A program made the position numbers and the translations under genes. Positions 1,382 through 21,194 of a DNA stretch of 25,708 nucleotides are shown here, one piece after another. How positions within the stretch are numbered: position 1 is the stretch's first letter; each line of letters starts with the position of its first letter. The stretch spans positions 1 through 25,708 of IMG/VR virus record IMGVR_UViG_3300025687_000289; one strand, written 5' to 3'. A model generated the notes under the pieces. That model ran no database searches. It was not told where the DNA came from and saw only the letters and a list, made by a program, of their open reading frames with translations. The DNA is from a virus.

Positions 1382-4300
1382 ATGGCGCTTGCACCGGGTC
1401 AACAACAAATCACGTTTGATACGTTTCAAAGAGAAATCAATAAGGCGTATGAACAAAATCTTGGCCGACCTGCCGATATTGCGGGCCTCAATTACTACAT
1501 GGGAGAAATCGCTAGCGGTAATAAAAATATCAATGAGGTTATAGCCGATTTGGAATATGCAGGTAGTCAACTAGCCGCTAGTGGGCAACAGGAATACATT
1601 GATCCGGGTGCTACTTATTATGAGCCTCCCGACGAACAGCAACAAACTTACATAGATACACGCATACAGGCGCAAGAACAAGCGCCTGTTGAGCAAATGA
1701 GTTTTGAAGAGTTGATGCAGGCAACAACAGAAAAAAAAGAAATTAAAAACATTAACGATCTTTACGATGTTTTGTTAGATCGACCTATAGATGCAAGTGG
1801 CGTAAGAGCGTGGAAAAAATTTGGCTCTACTATTGAGCCTGATGAAATAGTTGACTTTGTTCGTGGCGCTATAAAAAGCGGAGAAATCACATCAGATCGG
1901 GCTAGTGAAATTGTTTCTACTTATGCTCCTGAAGCTGCTGATCTTGCTAGCCGTGAATTTAAGCTAACAGAAGAGCTTAGGAATATGTATGGGATTGTGG
2001 TTGATACAAGCCCAACAGCCAAATATGGTGGCAGACAGAGCGATTTAACGACAATACATTCAGAAACAGCCAAGAAGCTAGCTGAAAAGGGTGTAGCCAA
2101 CCTTGCACAGCTTACTGAGGCAACGGATGACCGTGGACGCAGGTTTGTTGTTAACAAAGATACTGGCGAAAGCCTTTTTCAAATTACAAAAGACCGAGAC
2201 ACGGGTGCCGATAAGTGGGGTGGCATCTATGGTGGCGTTAAAGACAGTGCCAACCTTTCGATCTACTTTGACAGCACAGGCAGAGCCGTTCTTTTTCCCG
2301 TCCATGAAAAAACCAAAGGACTTGCCCAACAGCTACTAGGGCGTGATCTAGCAGCACTTGTTGAACCTGTTGCCACGGTTGTTGGCGCTTATTACGGTGG
2401 CCCTGCTGGTGCCGCCATAGGAAGTTCTTTAGGTCAATTAGCCACCACAGGGAAAATTGAGCCTGAAAAGGTGGCTTTAGCGGCAGCTACAACCTACATA
2501 AGTAGCGAGATTGCCAGTGCAGACTATGCAACCAAGGTCGGCAATGCCATGTTACCTACCGAGCTTGCTAACAGTGCAACCGCAAAGATTGTCGGCAATG
2601 CAGTGGTTAACTCAGGCGTTAGTGGCCTGATTGCAAGCGTGACAGGTGGTAACGTCGAACAGTCAATGGTAACGGGTGCAATTGTTGGCGGTGCTATTGC
2701 AAGCGCCCCTGACATTGCCAATACGCTCATGGGTGGCGAAGCAAACGTCAAAGCTGTTGCCGATGCGACGGGCTTAGGCTTGCGCCAAACACAAGACATT
2801 ATTGCTAGTTCCATTGCCGATGCGGTGGTGGCTGACGCTCAGAACCGTGATGGTTTTGGTTCTGCCCTCGGTGCTAGCCTTGTAGCCCGTGGAGTGGGTA
2901 CGGCTGCTGCTAATAAAGCGGTTGAGTTTGTCGGCAACAACTTCACACAAAACCCAGACGCATTGAAGGTCGTGTTTAATGGCACGAAAGGCATTGCTCA
3001 GGTGGCTACAGAGGCCGCTGTGAGAGGACAAGACGTTGAGGATGCCGTCAAGTTTGCTGCCCCCGGCATTGTCTTACAAGCAGGTTTAAGTGGTTTGGAG
3101 CAACCACAAACGGATGCTGACCGCATTGCCGCTATTCTTGAAGAACAGTTGCAGCAGGGCGGCATACCGGGAGAGGGTGTGCAAGTGGCTGGTGCCGATG
3201 GCGTAAGTGGCTTATTCGGTGTGCCGCCAGAGCTAGAAGGCGAAATTAGCGTCACAGAAGACGCTATTGCTAATGCTCAAGATGCGCTTGAGATGATGCC
3301 TAATATGTCTGAGGCTGATCGAAGCAACCTCATGCGGTTTATTAACGAAACGCAAAGCTACCTTGATGGCTTGTATCAACAAGTATCTCGCATCAATGTT
3401 GGCTATGATATGCGGCAATTTAGTGGTGATGCTGGTGGTAAAGGCTATGCGCTTGTCGGGGGTGGTGGTACTGCCTCAGTAGGAAACGCTGTTGGCTGGA
3501 ACTTTATTGGCGTTGATTCGGGTGGCAACCAGCAATTTAATGTTGGCGACGAGGTGTTTACCTTATTTGTTATGCCAAACAACCGTCCCGTGCTTGCCTC
3601 TACCACCTCTGAGTTAGTTTTTTACCCCGACTTTGTTGAGAATCCCGCTACTGCCGAGACTGAGCTTGTCCTTAATCCCACCAATGTGGAGCAAGTGCAG
3701 GTGGATGTGCAAGAGCAACGGCCACCAGAGCCAGTAAAACTAGAGCCGGGGCCAAGAGCAGAGGACGAAGAGGGAGCTACAGGTGCAGAAGGTGCTGCTG
3801 GTACCCCCGGCGGTGCTACACCGGGCACTTTACAAGAGGCGCTTGCCCTTGAACTGCGTGTTTTAGAGAATCGCCTGCAAGATGCTGCAAGAGAGCGCCA
3901 ACAGGCGGCACAAAACCTTGCCAATGCTGTTTCTCAACGTGAAAGACTTAGTTCACAAGGCTTAGAAACGGCTTTAGGCCCGGATTTAACTGAAATGTTG
4001 GACGCTGAAATCGCCACTTTGGAGGCTGCCGAGCGCAGTGCAGCCGAAGCAGAATCGGCTATCGGAACCCAAATAAGAGGGATTGGTGCAACGCAACAAG
4101 AAGAAGGTGAAGAAGGCGGTAGGACACGTCCGAGTAGCGAGGTCATTGGTGATCTAGTTCGTGGCGGTTTTGGCGATGCATTTCCAAGCCGTGAGGGTGA
4201 TGGCACGGGTGGCGTAGGTGGTGGCGAAGGATCGGGAGCCGGTACGGAAGGTACGGGGCCGGGAGCCGGTACGGAAGGCACTGGTCTTGGCGCTGGAGAA

Positions 4301-13872: not shown

Positions 13873-14089
13873 TGTTTACATGCTCCACAATCACAGCAGC
13901 GGCTAGGGCTGCGTACTCAGGGCTACGGGAGTCGATCTTAAAGACGGGTACGCCATCCTTATCAATAATCATCATGGCTCCGTCTTTGCCGATCTCTGCG
14001 GCCCACGGGGTATTTAGCATGTCATGCACCCATTCTTGCTCACTTTGTACTTCGTGCATAAAACGCTCTTCATCACTTTGGTTTTCCAT
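13865..14089 (-). CDS. Small acidic hypothetical protein
   Basis: A 74-residue protein from ATG 14089 with GGGAG seven bases upstream. It overlaps the end of the glycosyltransferase gene by 17 bases and the next gene by eight. The sequence is acidic at the start (MENQSDEERFMHEVQSEQEW) and then forms what may be a small alpha-beta unit (GAMMIIDKDGVPVFKIDSRS). No family is recognised. Confidence 0.65.
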   Translation of the reverse strand: MENQSDEERFMHEVQSEQEWVHDMLNTPWAAEIGKDGAMMIIDKDGVPVFKIDSRSPEYAALAAAVIVEHVNSA

Positions 14090-14855
14090 TGCTTACTCCC
14101 GGCTCTTCGATTAGTTGACCTTCAAATAGGTAGGTGCCAAAGTGCCCGATCCTACCCCACGGGGCACCCCAGACTTTGCCCTTGAGTTCCCGCCACTTGT
14201 GGCAAAAGTGATAATCCTCACTAAGCAGCCTGCCTGTCTTGGGGCAAATGCTCTCAGTGAAGTATTGGCTGATTGGCTTGCCACCCGGCAAATGGCTCAT
14301 GTCGTTCCTAAAGAACGGCACCTTCTTCTTCATCTTCTCAAAGACCTTGCGCTTAATCAGCATGATGCCCGTGCCACCTGCTGCGATCTCAAAGGGCTGG
14401 TTCTGCGGCACCGAGATATGCGCCGTGTTTTCCTTGAGGTTCACGACAAAGCTACCCGTGAACTTGCCAAGGTTCTCTTGCCCTGCCAAGGCTGCCTCAC
14501 GCACGCTATTCCAGTTGATCTCTTTCTTAGGACAGATACCCACGATAATGTCCTTGTCGGCCAAAATCATGTTGAGAATGTCGATGGCTCTGAACTTCAT
14601 GTCTGCGTCGATGAAGAGCAAGTGCGTGTTATCGGTCTGCAAGAACTGGTCAGCAAGGTTATTGCGTGCCCTAGTGATAAGCGATTCATTGAACATGAAG
14701 GCGCATGTCAGGCGTATGTTTTGCGACGTGAGCATCCCTGACAGCTCAAGCAATGACTGGACATAGACCCCCGTGCATTGGCCGCCGTACATGGGCGTGG
14801 CAACCTGCACTCTGATCTCTGGTAACTCGGGTTCTACTTTCTTTTTGCGTGGCAT
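14073..14855 (-). CDS. GT-A-type glycosyltransferase
   Basis: A 260-residue protein. After a basic start, a Rossmann-like opening (VQVATPMYGGQCTGVYVQSL) leads to LLFIDADMKFRAIDILNMI. Its Asp-Ala-Asp at 83-85 sits where the metal-binding DxD of GT-A enzymes lies. GGTGIMLIKRKVFEKM at about 158-173 and SEDYHFCHKWRELKG at about 217-231 match the acceptor-side and catalytic regions of phage GT2-like enzymes. The product could glycosylate phage DNA bases, virion proteins or host surface sugars; the sequence does not decide. A second GT-A-like gene lies at 17740-18528. Confidence 0.75.
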   Translation of the reverse strand: MPRKKKVEPELPEIRVQVATPMYGGQCTGVYVQSLLELSGMLTSQNIRLTCAFMFNESLITRARNNLADQFLQTDNTHLLFIDADMKFRAIDILNMILADKDIIVGICPKKEINWNSVREAALAGQENLGKFTGSFVVNLKENTAHISVPQNQPFEIAAGGTGIMLIKRKVFEKMKKKVPFFRNDMSHLPGGKPISQYFTESICPKTGRLLSEDYHFCHKWRELKGKVWGAPWGRIGHFGTYLFEGQLIEEPGVSNGKPK

Positions 14856-14911: not shown

Positions 14912-15274
14912 CTAATCTGTCCCTTTTGCGGGGACTCCCTGCTCTGGCTCAGGTGGGGTTAATTCATTCCCCATAAGTTTTAATGCATCCTCTAGGTGGA
15001 ACATGGCCATGCTTTTCTTCCCATCCCCCCTAAAAATTACGACTGGGGTGTGATCTACGTCACACGCCTTGTCAGCTTGTTCCATCCATTCGTACACGGC
15101 TATGTTACGTCTGCGCTTGCACTCAATGAGGAAAGGGCCAAGCTCAAGATCGCCGTGGTCGGCTTCTTGGTACTGCTTGAGGTTGCGCTTGATCCTGATG
15201 CCCAAAGCATCAAAGACGGCTGCGGCAACCTCTCGCTCGTACTGTGCCCCTCTGTTGCGTGCTAGTTTCGACAT
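14912..15274 (-). CDS. Holliday-junction-resolvase-like PD-(D/E)XK nuclease
   Basis: A 120-residue protein. The start (RNRGAQYEREVAAAVFDALG) supplies the first acidic helix (Glu13, Glu15). GDLELGPFLIECKRRRNI gives Asp42 and the Glu51-x-Lys53 pair, the standard metal site of small phage resolvases and VRR-type nucleases. It probably cuts branched DNA produced during recombination or before packaging. Its ATG overlaps the stop of the SSB-tailed gene (TAATG), so the two are coupled. The C-terminal 20 residues are a Pro/Glu-rich tail. Confidence 0.8.
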   Translation of the reverse strand: MSKLARNRGAQYEREVAAAVFDALGIRIKRNLKQYQEADHGDLELGPFLIECKRRRNIAVYEWMEQADKACDVDHTPVVIFRGDGKKSMAMFHLEDALKLMGNELTPPEPEQGVPAKGTD

Positions 15275-15549
15275 TAAAAGGGCACGTCGCCGTCAATGTC
15301 GTCAAAGCTCTTGGAAGGCGTTGGCTGCCGATTCTGCTTGTAGTTAGGGTCAGGCTTCCAAGTGTCCTCTTTGATGCTGATTAGCGGCCCTTTGGCGGTA
15401 CTCTTAATCCAGCCTGCCATCTTAAGTGTGTCGCCTGCCTTGTAGTCTTGGTCAAGCAATAGCTCCCCTTTCCAGTCTGGCCCCTTGCTTCCGTCAGGTT
15501 TGTTTTGTGCGAATAGGGCACCTGTGCCCGGTGGTCTTTCATACGCCAT
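15274..15549 (-). CDS. ssDNA-binding-like protein with SSB-type acidic tail
   Basis: A 91-residue protein. ATG 15549 is preferred over a TTG two codons earlier because AAAGGAG lies seven bases before it. The body (GTGALFAQNKPDGSKGPDWK, then GDTLKMAGWIKSTAKGPLIS) resembles the small OB-fold-like family common in phages. The end, FDDIDGDVPF, is the acidic 'DDxPF' tail by which SSB proteins recruit partners. It is flanked by resolvase and recombinase genes, so binding of single-stranded DNA intermediates is likely. Confidence 0.75.
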   Translation of the reverse strand: MAYERPPGTGALFAQNKPDGSKGPDWKGELLLDQDYKAGDTLKMAGWIKSTAKGPLISIKEDTWKPDPNYKQNRQPTPSKSFDDIDGDVPF

Positions 15550-15721
15550 GTCCAACTCCTTTCACCAAATGATAACGGGCGAACGACTTACCGCCCTCCT
15601 GTACTTCTTCTGTCACGATGTTGTGACCCTTCTTACGCAAATCCTCAATGCGTGCCGCCAGCCTGAACACGCCCATCATTTGAAGCGCCTCCAGCGCAGT
15701 CAGAGTGTGGCCCTTTTGCAT
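15539..15721 (-). CDS. Winged-helix (HTH_39-like) protein, maybe translated as a fusion with the RecT-like protein
   Basis: From ATG 15721 the product is 60 residues: HTLTALEALQMMGVFRLAAR, then IEDLRKKGHNIVTEEVQ, matching the phage winged-helix family HTH_39. Family members usually have about 14 residues before the LTxLEAL motif, but this start leaves only six. The frame stays open upstream and encodes FSQSELILRYMQKG, which looks like the missing first helix, yet no ATG, GTG or TTG lies between the in-frame TGA and 15721. The open region runs back to the slippery site at the end of the RecT-like gene. Translation by -1 frameshift, by a rare start such as GTA, or from the short ATG are all possible. 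Confidence 0.7.
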   Translation of the reverse strand: MQKGHTLTALEALQMMGVFRLAARIEDLRKKGHNIVTEEVQEGGKSFARYHLVKGVGHGV

Positions 15722-15774
15722 ATAACGTAGGATTAACTCTGACTGACTGAAACGGGTGCCGTTGACTGGCTCGG

Positions 15775-16608
15775 CTACTTTTTTGCTTCTTCATCTATTG
15801 AGCGCCGTGCCCTACCAATTCCAGTGCTAAATACTTGGTAAAGCCCCTCATGGTTACGGGCAAGCTCATGCACGTTCTTGCTGTTGCACTTCTCAAAGTC
15901 GCTCATTTTGAGCAGCTTCGTGCCTGCGTCCATCTTTTGATTGGCTGCGATCTTGTCGATCATGGTTAGAAAGGCATCGGCCCACTTGTCCATGTTCTCG
16001 TAATAGGCATAAGGTTCGTCACTCCCGGGCACCATCAAAGCAATGCCGGTGGTAGGCTGCTCAACGACTGCTGCAACCGACGGGGCGGCTTCTTCTTGAA
16101 TTGAAACCACTGGTTCCATTCTGGCCCCGGGGATTGTTTCGGCTTCGGTTTCGTCGAGCATCCCGAGGCCACAGTGTGCGAGGACTGCACGCCTGATCGC
16201 TTTCGTGGTGGCTTTAAGGACTGCATTGGCGAGGGCGTCCCCTTTGAGGTGTGCAACTGCCACTGCCCCTTGGTTCTCAGAAAGTCTACCGTCAGCCCCC
16301 GTAACTCTGACGCTGACAAGGTATATGTCATCCATCTTTTCTCGGTGCGTGACTTGGGTGCTAAGTTTATGGATAGCACACAACTGCTGAGTACACTGTG
16401 CGTTGGCATATAAAATTTCCTTCCCATTGAGTCTGAGCAAATCAAACGGCTTGGCTGCGGGGTCTAGCCCTGCCTGCTGGCACCTGTAGTTGTAATACGC
16501 AACTTTCTGCGGTGGCTGTAGCTTGCTCAAATCGCCGTTAATGACGATGCTCTCGATTACTTTCGGGTCTAAGACTTCGCCCTGTTTCATGTTGACTACG
16601 TTTGTCAT
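15775..16608 (-). CDS. RecT/Red-beta-like single-strand annealing protein
   Basis: A 277-residue protein. I choose ATG 16608, preceded by AAAGGGGA, over a GTG five codons upstream. Residues 34-62 (QKVAYYNYRCQQAGLDPAAK, then PFDLLRLNGKE) and 131-162 (LKATTKAIRRAVLAHCGLGM, then LDETEAETIPGA) match phage single-strand annealing proteins of the RecT or related type. It would pair complementary single strands made by the exonuclease encoded just upstream. The C-terminal part after residue 165 is variable and helical. The gene ends in the slippery sequence described separately. Confidence 0.7.
   Translation of the reverse strand: MTNVVNMKQGEVLDPKVIESIVINGDLSKLQPPQKVAYYNYRCQQAGLDPAAKPFDLLRLNGKEILYANAQCTQQLCAIHKLSTQVTHREKMDDIYLVSVRVTGADGRLSENQGAVAVAHLKGDALANAVLKATTKAIRRAVLAHCGLGMLDETEAETIPGARMEPVVSIQEEAAPSVAAVVEQPTTGIALMVPGSDEPYAYYENMDKWADAFLTMIDKIAANQKMDAGTKLLKMSDFEKCNSKNVHELARNHEGLYQVFSTGIGRARRSIDEEAKK
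15778..15784 (-). other. Candidate -1 ribosomal frameshift site A AAA AAG
   Basis: On the minus strand the RecT-like frame ends GCA AAA AAG TAG. The heptamer A AAA AAG is phased exactly as in known -1 sites such as dnaX, and the zero-frame stop follows at once. A slip of -1 enters GTA GCC GAG CCA and continues without a stop through the winged-helix gene to 15539. A weak stem GCCG/CGGC lies just downstream. No clear stimulatory Shine-Dalgarno lies at the usual distance upstream. Confidence 0.5.
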
Positions 16609-16619
16609 AACTTCCCCTT

Positions 16620-17513
16620 TCACTTGACTAGGAATCGGCGACTGCCGGGTGTTTCAACAACAAACTGGTGGTAAATGTCAGGCATTGCAGACTTCAATAA
16701 CTCGGCACTAAACCGCTTAGAGGGCTTGGCCGTCTTCCAAGTGCAAAGCACCGAACCATCAAACGATGTAACCGTGGCTTTTTCCTTCATCCAGCTTTGG
16801 ACGAACTCTTTAAGCCCGTCTTCGGCCTCTTCAAACTCCTTCATCTTGGCCTTGAGTTGTTGTAGCTGAATACATGCCTGCTCGATGCTGGCGTTGGCCA
16901 CGATAGAGCTACCGTCATCAACCTTATAAACGTCCTTCACTACGTCGGCCATCGTCTGCGGGTTGAAACTACGGGTCTGGCACTGTGCCCAGAACTCAGC
17001 CATTGCTCGGATATGCGCTTCTTGCTCTAGCTCCGTCACGGTCTGCGGGAACCTGCAAAGCTCTTGCCCCCCAAAAAGAACGATAAGCTCGATACGCTCG
17101 ACTTGATGAACAACAAGCTCATGCATACACTGTGCCCTGTAGCGGTCAGAAACCTGCTCTGTGCCGTTATCGCCATAGTGCTTGCGTTGATGCACCCCCA
17201 AGTTTTTGATCTCATAGAGCGTTTTACCGTCTGCACTAATGTAGTCAAAGTGGCTGGCCATCCAGTCATGCTTGGGGTGCCTTAAGGCATAGTCAGCCTG
17301 TTTGAACTCAAGCCCCCAACGCCCTGCTGCGGCCCTCATAATCGGCTCTTGCAGTAGCGTGCCCATTTGCACTGCTTCATTGTCGCTAAGGTCTTCTGGC
17401 TCTTTTTGGCCCGTCTTGAGCATAAAGACTTCGCCTGCCTTGCCTGCCGCTATCTGCCCTGCGTCAGTGGCCCAAATCGCACTGGCTCTGGTTTCTGGTG
17501 AAAAGTCGGACAT
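16620..17513 (-). CDS. YqaJ-type viral recombinase exonuclease
   Basis: A 297-residue protein, a little longer than the family core. The PD-(D/E)XK site is clear: MGTLLQEPIMRAAAGRWG (Glu56), ASHFDYISADG (Asp90), YEIKNLG (Glu101-x-Lys103) and YRAQCMHEL (Gln128). It resembles lambda exonuclease and YqaJ enzymes, which resect double-stranded ends so that an annealing protein can act. Residues about 205-235 form a coiled coil, and the C-terminal 60 residues add an unrecognised module. The annealing gene follows after 11 bases, giving the standard exonuclease-annealase pair. Confidence 0.85.
   Translation of the reverse strand: MSDFSPETRASAIWATDAGQIAAGKAGEVFMLKTGQKEPEDLSDNEAVQMGTLLQEPIMRAAAGRWGLEFKQADYALRHPKHDWMASHFDYISADGKTLYEIKNLGVHQRKHYGDNGTEQVSDRYRAQCMHELVVHQVERIELIVLFGGQELCRFPQTVTELEQEAHIRAMAEFWAQCQTRSFNPQTMADVVKDVYKVDDGSSIVANASIEQACIQLQQLKAKMKEFEEAEDGLKEFVQSWMKEKATVTSFDGSVLCTWKTAKPSKRFSAELLKSAMPDIYHQFVVETPGSRRFLVK
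16626..16634 (-). promoter_or_regulatory. Leader motif TTCCTAGTC before the RecT-like gene
   Basis: A copy of the shared motif, here inside the last codons of the exonuclease, six bases before AAGGGG. It is very similar to the copy at 17718-17726 over 21 bases. Confidence 0.4.
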
Positions 17514-20211: not shown

Positions 20212-21105
20212 CTAGGCTGCTAAGGTTTCCTCTACTGGCTTTGCTACTGTAAGCCAGTCTAGGGCTTGTTGGGCTTTAGCGGCTGCGGTCAGTATGGCTT
20301 TTTTGTCATTCTTGAGAACCTTTAACCAATTCCCGATATAGGCGACATGGTTAGAGTCTAGCCCTTGACCGTTAACCCCGACATGAGCGCATAGCATGGC
20401 GGCTCCAAGCTCGGCTATTAGTTCTTCAAAAGCGTATGCTTCATCCCCGAAGCGTTTAGCCTTACTAAAATCCCGGTCTAGCCTATGATGCGCCCCGGTA
20501 GCATGTACGCTTTCATGCAAAAGGGTTGCATGGTATGCATCCGCATCATTAAAGGCGGCCATTGGGGGCATTACAATCTCATCCCTGCTAGGCCTATAAA
20601 AGGCGCTGTTACCGGCGTGCGTTAAGCCATTCAACTCTAGTTTGTCAACAATGGCCATAACAGCCGGGTTAGCGTCAAAGTCGGGCTTAGGCGGCTCGGG
20701 TATAGCGGGAATGACTAGATCGTCGCATTGTTCGACATTGAAAACATAGTAGTGCTTGATAAACGCATAGGCACTGGTTACGGTTTCCCCGGCACTATCC
20801 TTTGATTCTTTTTTGTTTACTGACCAGTAAACCACTGGTAAGCCTTTAGACCCGGCCTTTACGGTAGCCCCTAGGCTTTGGGCTTGCTTAAAGGTCAACC
20901 AGTAAGGGCTTGTATAAGAACCCTGAGCCATTGAAAGCCAAAAATGGTTGATACCCCGGTAAAGGGTGCCTGATACCGGGTTGTAGGGCATACCATCGCC
21001 CGGAGTGCCCCTTAGATTCTTCCAAGGTTTAACCCAAGGGGTAGAGCCCTTTTCAAGCTCGGCGATGATTCGATCTGTAATGATTTGTGCAATATCAAGT
21101 GACAT
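20212..21105 (-). CDS. ardC: ArdC-like antirestriction protein
   Basis: A 297-residue protein; ATG 21105 is chosen because AAGGGG precedes it, although the frame extends 20 codons further. The N-terminal half is the ArdC ssDNA-binding domain (IIAELEKGSTPWVKPWKN, YNPVSGTLYRGINHFWLS, YWLTFKQAQSLGATVKAGSK). The C-terminal half is a zincin metallopeptidase: LLHESVHATGAHHRLDR gives His197-Glu198 and His201, with EELIAELGAAM at 227-237. ArdC proteins bind incoming DNA and help it escape host restriction. They are best known from plasmids, and here the gene heads towards the end of an early operon in a phage. Confidence 0.9.
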   Translation of the reverse strand: MSLDIAQIITDRIIAELEKGSTPWVKPWKNLRGTPGDGMPYNPVSGTLYRGINHFWLSMAQGSYTSPYWLTFKQAQSLGATVKAGSKGLPVVYWSVNKKESKDSAGETVTSAYAFIKHYYVFNVEQCDDLVIPAIPEPPKPDFDANPAVMAIVDKLELNGLTHAGNSAFYRPSRDEIVMPPMAAFNDADAYHATLLHESVHATGAHHRLDRDFSKAKRFGDEAYAFEELIAELGAAMLCAHVGVNGQGLDSNHVAYIGNWLKVLKNDKKAILTAAAKAQQALDWLTVAKPVEETLAA

Positions 21106-21119
21106 AGTAGAACCCCTTT

Positions 21120-21194
21120 TTAGACTAGGAAAAGAAAAACCATGACTTTTAGCCATGTAAGCCAAGCAACAAGAAAGAAAAGAAAGCCTTGCAT
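21120..21194 (-). CDS. Membrane micro-protein (24 aa) between two ArdC-cassette genes
   Basis: ATG 21194 to TAA 21120. The product is wholly hydrophobic (QGFLFFLVAWLTWLKVMVFL, then FLV), long enough to cross a membrane once. AAGGGGCTAATC precedes the ATG. The end of this ORF contains the TTCCTAGTC motif and its stop joins the ArdC ribosome site. Too short for ordinary gene callers. The matching leader with the ORF at 19691-19783 is the main support. Confidence 0.45.
   Translation of the reverse strand: MQGFLFFLVAWLTWLKVMVFLFLV
21123..21131 (-). promoter_or_regulatory. Leader motif TTCCTAGTC before ArdC
   Basis: A copy of the shared minus-strand motif, four bases before AAGGGG. Confidence 0.45.

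Follow-up and report, generated by a model that had tools for sequence, protein, structure and literature searches.

Evidence for a programmed −1 ribosomal frameshift that would join a winged-helix domain to phage single-strand annealing proteins

The window, that is the whole stretch of viral DNA analysed here, is 25,708 nucleotides long (IMG/VR record IMGVR_UViG_3300025687_000289, positions 1 to 25,708). On its minus strand, the 3′ end of a gene for a single-strand annealing protein is followed in the −1 frame by an open stretch encoding a winged helix-turn-helix (HTH) domain. The features at and around this junction are:

16620–17513, minus strand: RecE/YqaJ-like exonuclease, upstream in the cassette (PF09588, E=3.1e-9; phrog_434, E=2.4e-48)
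15775–16608, minus strand: Rad52-like single-strand annealing protein in the zero frame, 277 aa (ATG at 16608, TAG at 15777–15775)
15778–15784, minus strand: slippery heptamer A_AAA_AAG in the −1 phase, read from the sequence (an in-phase heptamer is present in 85/86 of the relatives' junctions)
15775–15777, minus strand: zero-frame stop codon TAG directly 3′ of the heptamer, read from the sequence
15539–15778, minus strand: −1 frame extension by translation, 79 codons plus stop, made up of a linker (VAEPVNGTRF) and the winged helix
15560–15748, minus strand: HTH_39 winged HTH domain (PF14090, 50.3 bits with a cut-off of 21.3, E=2.1e-13, profile positions 1–69 of 70)
15539–15721, minus strand: ATG-started open reading frame as an annotator would call it, with its start inside HTH_39 at profile position 12 of 70
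15277–15549, minus strand: SSB-like protein, downstream, with the acidic tail DDIDGDVPF (weak phrog_18154 match, E=0.002)
14912–15274, minus strand: PDDEXK/Holliday-junction-resolvase-like nuclease (PF24608, E=1.7e-8; phrog_244, E=2.4e-20)

Judged from these sequence matches, the exonuclease, the annealing protein, the SSB-like protein and the resolvase-like nuclease together are a recombination cassette. A gene for a glycosyltransferase-like protein (14073–14855, minus strand; weak Anp1 match, below the cut-off) adjoins the cassette in the window and in relatives, and an ArdC-like anti-restriction protein with a zincin metallopeptidase domain is encoded at 20212–21165 on the minus strand (PF08401 and PF18818).

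The minus strand at the junction reads GAT GAA GAA GCA AAA AAG TAG CCG, in which A AAA AAG stands in the −1 phase (X_XXY_YYZ) with the TAG at once after it, as the preliminary description of this locus had pointed out. The −1 frame is shut just 5′ of the heptamer by a TGA (15793–15791), and at the other end it stops at 15541–15539; the extension of 79 residues in between starts VAEPVNGTRFSQSELILRYM and remains open through the winged helix, for which approximately 80 residues had been predicted. The long −1 fusion proposed earlier exists as an open reading frame, and its length is 356 aa rather than about 357. From the heptamer to the winged-helix domain there is no ATG, GTG or TTG in the window. 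The stretch between the two genes had been proposed to supply the first helix of the domain; the −1 reading matches HTH_39 profile positions 1–69, and a start at 15721, the only ATG, would drop positions 1–11, which lie in the first helix. No Shine–Dalgarno (SD) sequence was found before ATG 15721, and the equivalent ATG is missing in relative L007/L023. This ATG is probably not used as a start.

The annealing protein had been labelled RecT-like, a label that could not be kept for the window. Its zero-frame protein was matched by the Pfam profile Rad52_Rad22 (PF04098) with 21.8 bits (cut-off 20.3), and the RecT profile PF03837 gave no match to it. An AlphaFold model, built from an alignment of the window and IMG/VR rows only, with GenBank and bacterial rows left out, had a mean pLDDT of 74.5. 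The best Foldseek matches of the model core were human RAD52 chains (best E=8.8e-5, prob 1.00), with a TM-score of about 0.4 by target and a VIA-align Z of about 7–8.1 over 95–110 residues. A PDB sequence search with the SSAP profile returned chance matches only. Thus the zero-frame protein is Rad52-like and not RecT-like, although some of its relatives are RecT-like; its annealing activity and its assembly into rings or filaments are inferred. In the model, the C-terminal part is a separate domain, and the heptamer falls where its final helix ends.

Relatives were collected from IMG/VR by searches that took the annealing protein, the winged helix or an alignment of either as the query, which together with three GenBank loci gave 241 loci; junctions were counted over those annealing genes whose 3′ end was intact, 143 distinct ones in all. 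The winged helix lay in the overlapping −1 frame in 86 of these 143 genes, and all but one of the 86 distinct junctions had an in-phase slippery heptamer (AAAAAAG in 48, CCCAAAG in 31, CCCAAAA in five and AAAAAAA in one). No in-frame fusion of an annealing protein with an HTH was present among the 143. The junction set comprised 26 clusters at 80% amino acid identity and 16 at 70%. Across 22,133 other positions of the same genes, only two such in-phase heptamers occurred, and approximately 0.002 would be expected by chance per 20-codon overlap. The zero-frame stop lay 0–18 codons past the heptamer across the relatives, and it is therefore the heptamer and not the stop that is the kept element. 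Just 5′ of the heptamer, almost every codon in the window clade showed synonymous change, with none in the heptamer codons; the EEAKK stretch of five codons, which ends in the heptamer, had no synonymous change in this clade. The preliminary description had asked whether heptamer and phase are kept while neighbouring synonymous sites vary; heptamer and phase are kept over the 26 clusters, and the synonymous variation next to them was observed in the window clade. The carriers are mostly uncultured phages. A DNA-level search of GenBank phages gave no match; the GenBank genome MW202825.1 has the same layout, with GAA CTC CCA AAG CCG at the junction and HTH_39 in the −1 frame.

The layout was not restricted to Rad52-like proteins. 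In 21 junctions, the annealing protein was of a second type whose core matched RecT (PF03837, E=1e-6 for L029), and the Rad52-like profile matched L028–L030 and L072 in the region of the C-terminal domain only. A structural model of a RecT-like relative was of low confidence (pLDDT 62) and gave no significant fold match. In alignments, the C-terminal domains of the RecT-like and Rad52-like proteins were alike, and both were followed by the heptamer and HTH_39, suggesting that the annealing cores have been swapped ahead of one shared module. RecT-like cores with this C-terminal domain, heptamer and HTH_39 were seen in L028–L030, L064–L068, L072–L074, L180–L202 and L323. A tree built from the Rad52-like core requires at least eight changes of the C-type heptamer label, five of them forced by well-supported branches. 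A switch from A- to C-type alters the encoded amino acids from KK to PK and keeps the in-phase slipperiness, and thus retention of the heptamer cannot be put down to amino acid constraint. Recombination between core and tail could be behind some of these switches. Of the −1 motifs measured in E. coli, C_CCA_AAG, A_AAA_AAG and G_GGA_AAG ranked as the top three in efficiency (PMC4066793; see also PMC5009743).

To be read by shifted ribosomes, the −1 linker should be constrained as protein. We analysed codons 2–16 past the heptamer in the window clade, a stretch that follows the zero-frame stop and in most members precedes any possible start. The dN/dS was 0.14 in the −1 frame compared with 0.95–1.25 in the other frames, and the remainder of the winged-helix domain gave 0.15, equal to the linker. 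The impression recorded earlier that this inter-gene stretch looks like real protein was thus borne out by purifying selection in the −1 frame only. For the RecT-like relatives, in which both frames are open for 17 codons, dN/dS was 0.47 in the −1 frame versus 1.24. The −1 linker was also tested in the L151 and L157 clades and was not constrained there. In L149–L153 and L157–L169, acidic zero-frame tails that recall SSB tails run past the heptamer (VTLEAEEDEVFE), and the −1 linker is unconstrained.

Relatives without the winged helix served as controls. The heptamer was absent in 50 of 51 such phage relatives, and both heptamer and winged helix were absent in all 79 complete bacterial relatives. 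L164 (around 3230–3290) has kept the heptamer with the winged helix gone, probably as a relic of recent domain loss. Genes that have the winged helix and genes that lack it mostly fell into different clades, and an independent-pairs test found only 3–5 independent contrasts, which were too few. According to the preliminary description, the proposal would be refuted by relatives with an ordinary start for the winged helix, or with the heptamer lost and both genes intact. Among the relatives, an ordinary ATG start was confined to one small clade of its own (L138, L139, L142 and L143). These four have no heptamer, and their winged helix, set in a different register, opens at an ATG that overlaps the annealing gene (ATGAGCCAAAACAATGA). 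The heptamer was missing from an intact pair of genes once, in L129: its junction, GCC CAA AAG TAA, retains the −1 arrangement, but C CAA AAG does not make a good heptamer. This sole −1 junction without a good heptamer may be a true loss or a contig error.

Elements that might stimulate slippage were less uniform. No downstream stem-loop within 65 nt was common to 31 representatives (mean z −0.07 compared with −0.27 in control windows). SD-like stretches 5′ of the heptamer were enriched in the RecT-like group (p=4e-6) and weakly in the Rad52-like group (p=0.001), and none was found at this position in the window. The window does have one candidate stem:

15686–15754, minus strand: candidate stimulatory stem (arms 15754–15736 and 15706–15686), 23 nt past the heptamer, fold z=−2.09

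In the window clade, none of ten codons in the core arms was synonymously variable compared with 32 of 63 elsewhere (p=0.002; arms picked after folding). This stem is clade-specific, and its 23-nt spacing exceeds the usual. The best heptamers without stimulators reach around 0.3% in E. coli (PMC4066793). With no stimulator common to all junctions, the efficiency of frameshifting is not predictable.

Because of the in-phase heptamer, the constrained −1 coding, the missing starts (see below) and the conservation over two annealing-protein types, we consider it very likely that programmed −1 ribosomal frameshifting operates on the annealing gene. This rests on comparative sequence data: the slippage, its rate and its purpose are inferred, and the fusion protein has not been observed. 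Most ribosomes would presumably terminate at the TAG and release the 277-aa Rad52-like protein, and a fraction would slip one base back on A_AAA_AAG, with the P- and A-site tRNAs re-pairing in the −1 frame, to make a protein of 356 aa, which would share the annealing core and C-terminal domain of the shorter form and carry the winged helix in addition. The fusion would be the minority form, and we infer that both forms mix in the annealing oligomer, some subunits having the winged helix. Annealing proteins of this superfamily assemble into rings or filaments, and a binding arm would therefore be present on a set fraction of the subunits.

The purpose of such an arm is far less certain. That it binds DNA or a partner, perhaps placing the complex on duplex ends or forks, or contacting the neighbouring exonuclease or SSB-like protein, is our leading suggestion, held at slightly under an even chance. 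A broader conjecture, on which we would place a little less weight still, is that a widespread class of phages sets recombination by frameshift stoichiometry, a fixed share of winged-helix subunits targeting or loading the complex, with the C-terminal domain, heptamer and winged helix as a module moving between Rad52-like and RecT-like cores. The main alternative to a binding arm accepts the frameshift and assigns the fusion to autoregulation, the winged helix controlling the cassette by binding either its own mRNA or an operator. Winged-helix proteins are often regulators, and the FseA regulator (msi172–msi171) of Mesorhizobium ICEs is made by a programmed frameshift at the 3′ end of a small gene that fuses the next gene (PMC5882170). 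FseA thus shares with our junctions a 3′-end frameshift fusing adjacent genes on a mobile element; however, it is a transcription regulator of excision and contains no annealing protein. Moreover, HTH_39 occurs here solely as an extension of annealing proteins within an exonuclease–annealing–SSB cassette, and C-terminal HTHs are common to annealing families of other phages, where they are in frame (PMC8093625). Neither point is decisive, and we regard autoregulation as unlikely but by no means dismissed. The extra DNA-binding HTHs in distinct families of Firmicutes annealing proteins, and the C-terminal domain of Redbeta, have been credited to domain shuffling (PMC8093625). They resemble the present case in adding a C-terminal HTH to otherwise distinct annealing families, without implying homology of the domains, but are present in every copy, whereas the −1 frame winged helix would be on some copies only. 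Adding a C-terminal HTH to annealing proteins is thus a recurring solution.

If frameshifting is set aside, the two parts could be made as separate proteins, the winged helix arising by coupled re-initiation at a non-standard or internal start and the heptamer being incidental. The window has its ATG at 15721, the L138, L139, L142 and L143 clade has a plain ATG, and L057–L059 and L149–L169 have ATGA/TTGA overlaps with SD-like stretches. In all, an overlapping ATGA/TTGA start, or a start nearby, is available in 18 junctions (L057–L059 and 15 within L149–L169); frameshifting is not required there, and the other 67 junctions are the firmer set. Against separate proteins, 43 of the 85 heptamer junctions have no ATG, GTG or TTG ahead of the domain, so that, as in the window, an independent start for the downstream part is absent, and the candidates in the remaining junctions are not conserved in position and mostly lack an SD sequence. 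By comparison, stand-alone HTH_39 genes (16 checked) have an ATG and a good SD sequence. In addition, the linker is constrained as protein ahead of any start, and a real ATG is seen in precisely the clade that lacks the heptamer. We therefore consider this explanation very improbable.

Polymerase stutter on the A run, giving the fusion from altered mRNAs, is harder still to sustain. The window has a run of six A residues, which is short for such stutter, but 31 junctions have CCCAAAG in the same phase with a longest run of three, which argues against both polymerase stutter and base-calling error, and the X_XXY_YYZ phase, unneeded for stutter, is kept. Finally, an artefact of sequencing or assembly, or an indel that has split a gene in decay, can for practical purposes be discounted: these are metagenomic contigs, homopolymers are error-prone and L004 does have a broken annealing frame, but one register recurs in 85 distinct junctions from many samples with two different heptamers and purifying selection on the −1 coding, and the layout is repeated in a separately deposited GenBank genome.

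Programmed −1 frameshifting thus remains the preferred reading, and its parts have precedents. The dnaX gene of E. coli (tau/gamma) uses A_AAA_AAG to make two DNA-metabolism products with different C-termini, which may occur together in a single oligomer. The heptamer and the two C-termini are shared with the annealing gene; however, the shift gives the shorter product in dnaX and the longer one here, the genes are unrelated, and the SD-like element of dnaX is absent in the window, although RecT-like relatives have SD-like stretches. In IS3-family OrfAB transposases (IS911 and IS3), a −1 shift on A_AAA_AAG joins an HTH part to another functional part. The likeness lies in linking a DNA-binding HTH through the same motif, but there the HTH is in the zero-frame product, whereas in the annealing fusion it is the added part, and the proteins are unrelated; the work on −1 motifs is relevant to this family (PMC4066793). 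The tail assembly chaperone G/GT is likewise a phage gene with a −1 shift near its 3′ end that puts a C-terminal domain on a fraction of copies, but it serves morphogenesis and not recombination, and the proteins are unrelated. In one large phage set, 2,397 of the 2,476 frameshift genes that had been joined are tail chaperones (PMC10885494).

In the open-access papers searched, we found no description of frameshifting with annealing or recombination proteins. What appears to be new is a conserved family of −1 frameshifts in phage recombination proteins. If true, two families of annealing proteins would bring recoding into the machinery of homologous recombination in phages, whereas the annotated phage frameshifts examined are nearly all in tail assembly. 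It also makes testable the idea that annealing proteins act as oligomers of both forms, in which a set proportion of the subunits bears the domain, and, as annealing proteins are recombineering tools, a natural targeting arm would be of practical interest. The junction has escaped annotation: in MW202825.1 the HTH gene is given a truncated internal start (L323 1576–1689; MW202825.1 3442–3555), and the conserved reading starts upstream of it, at the slippery site.
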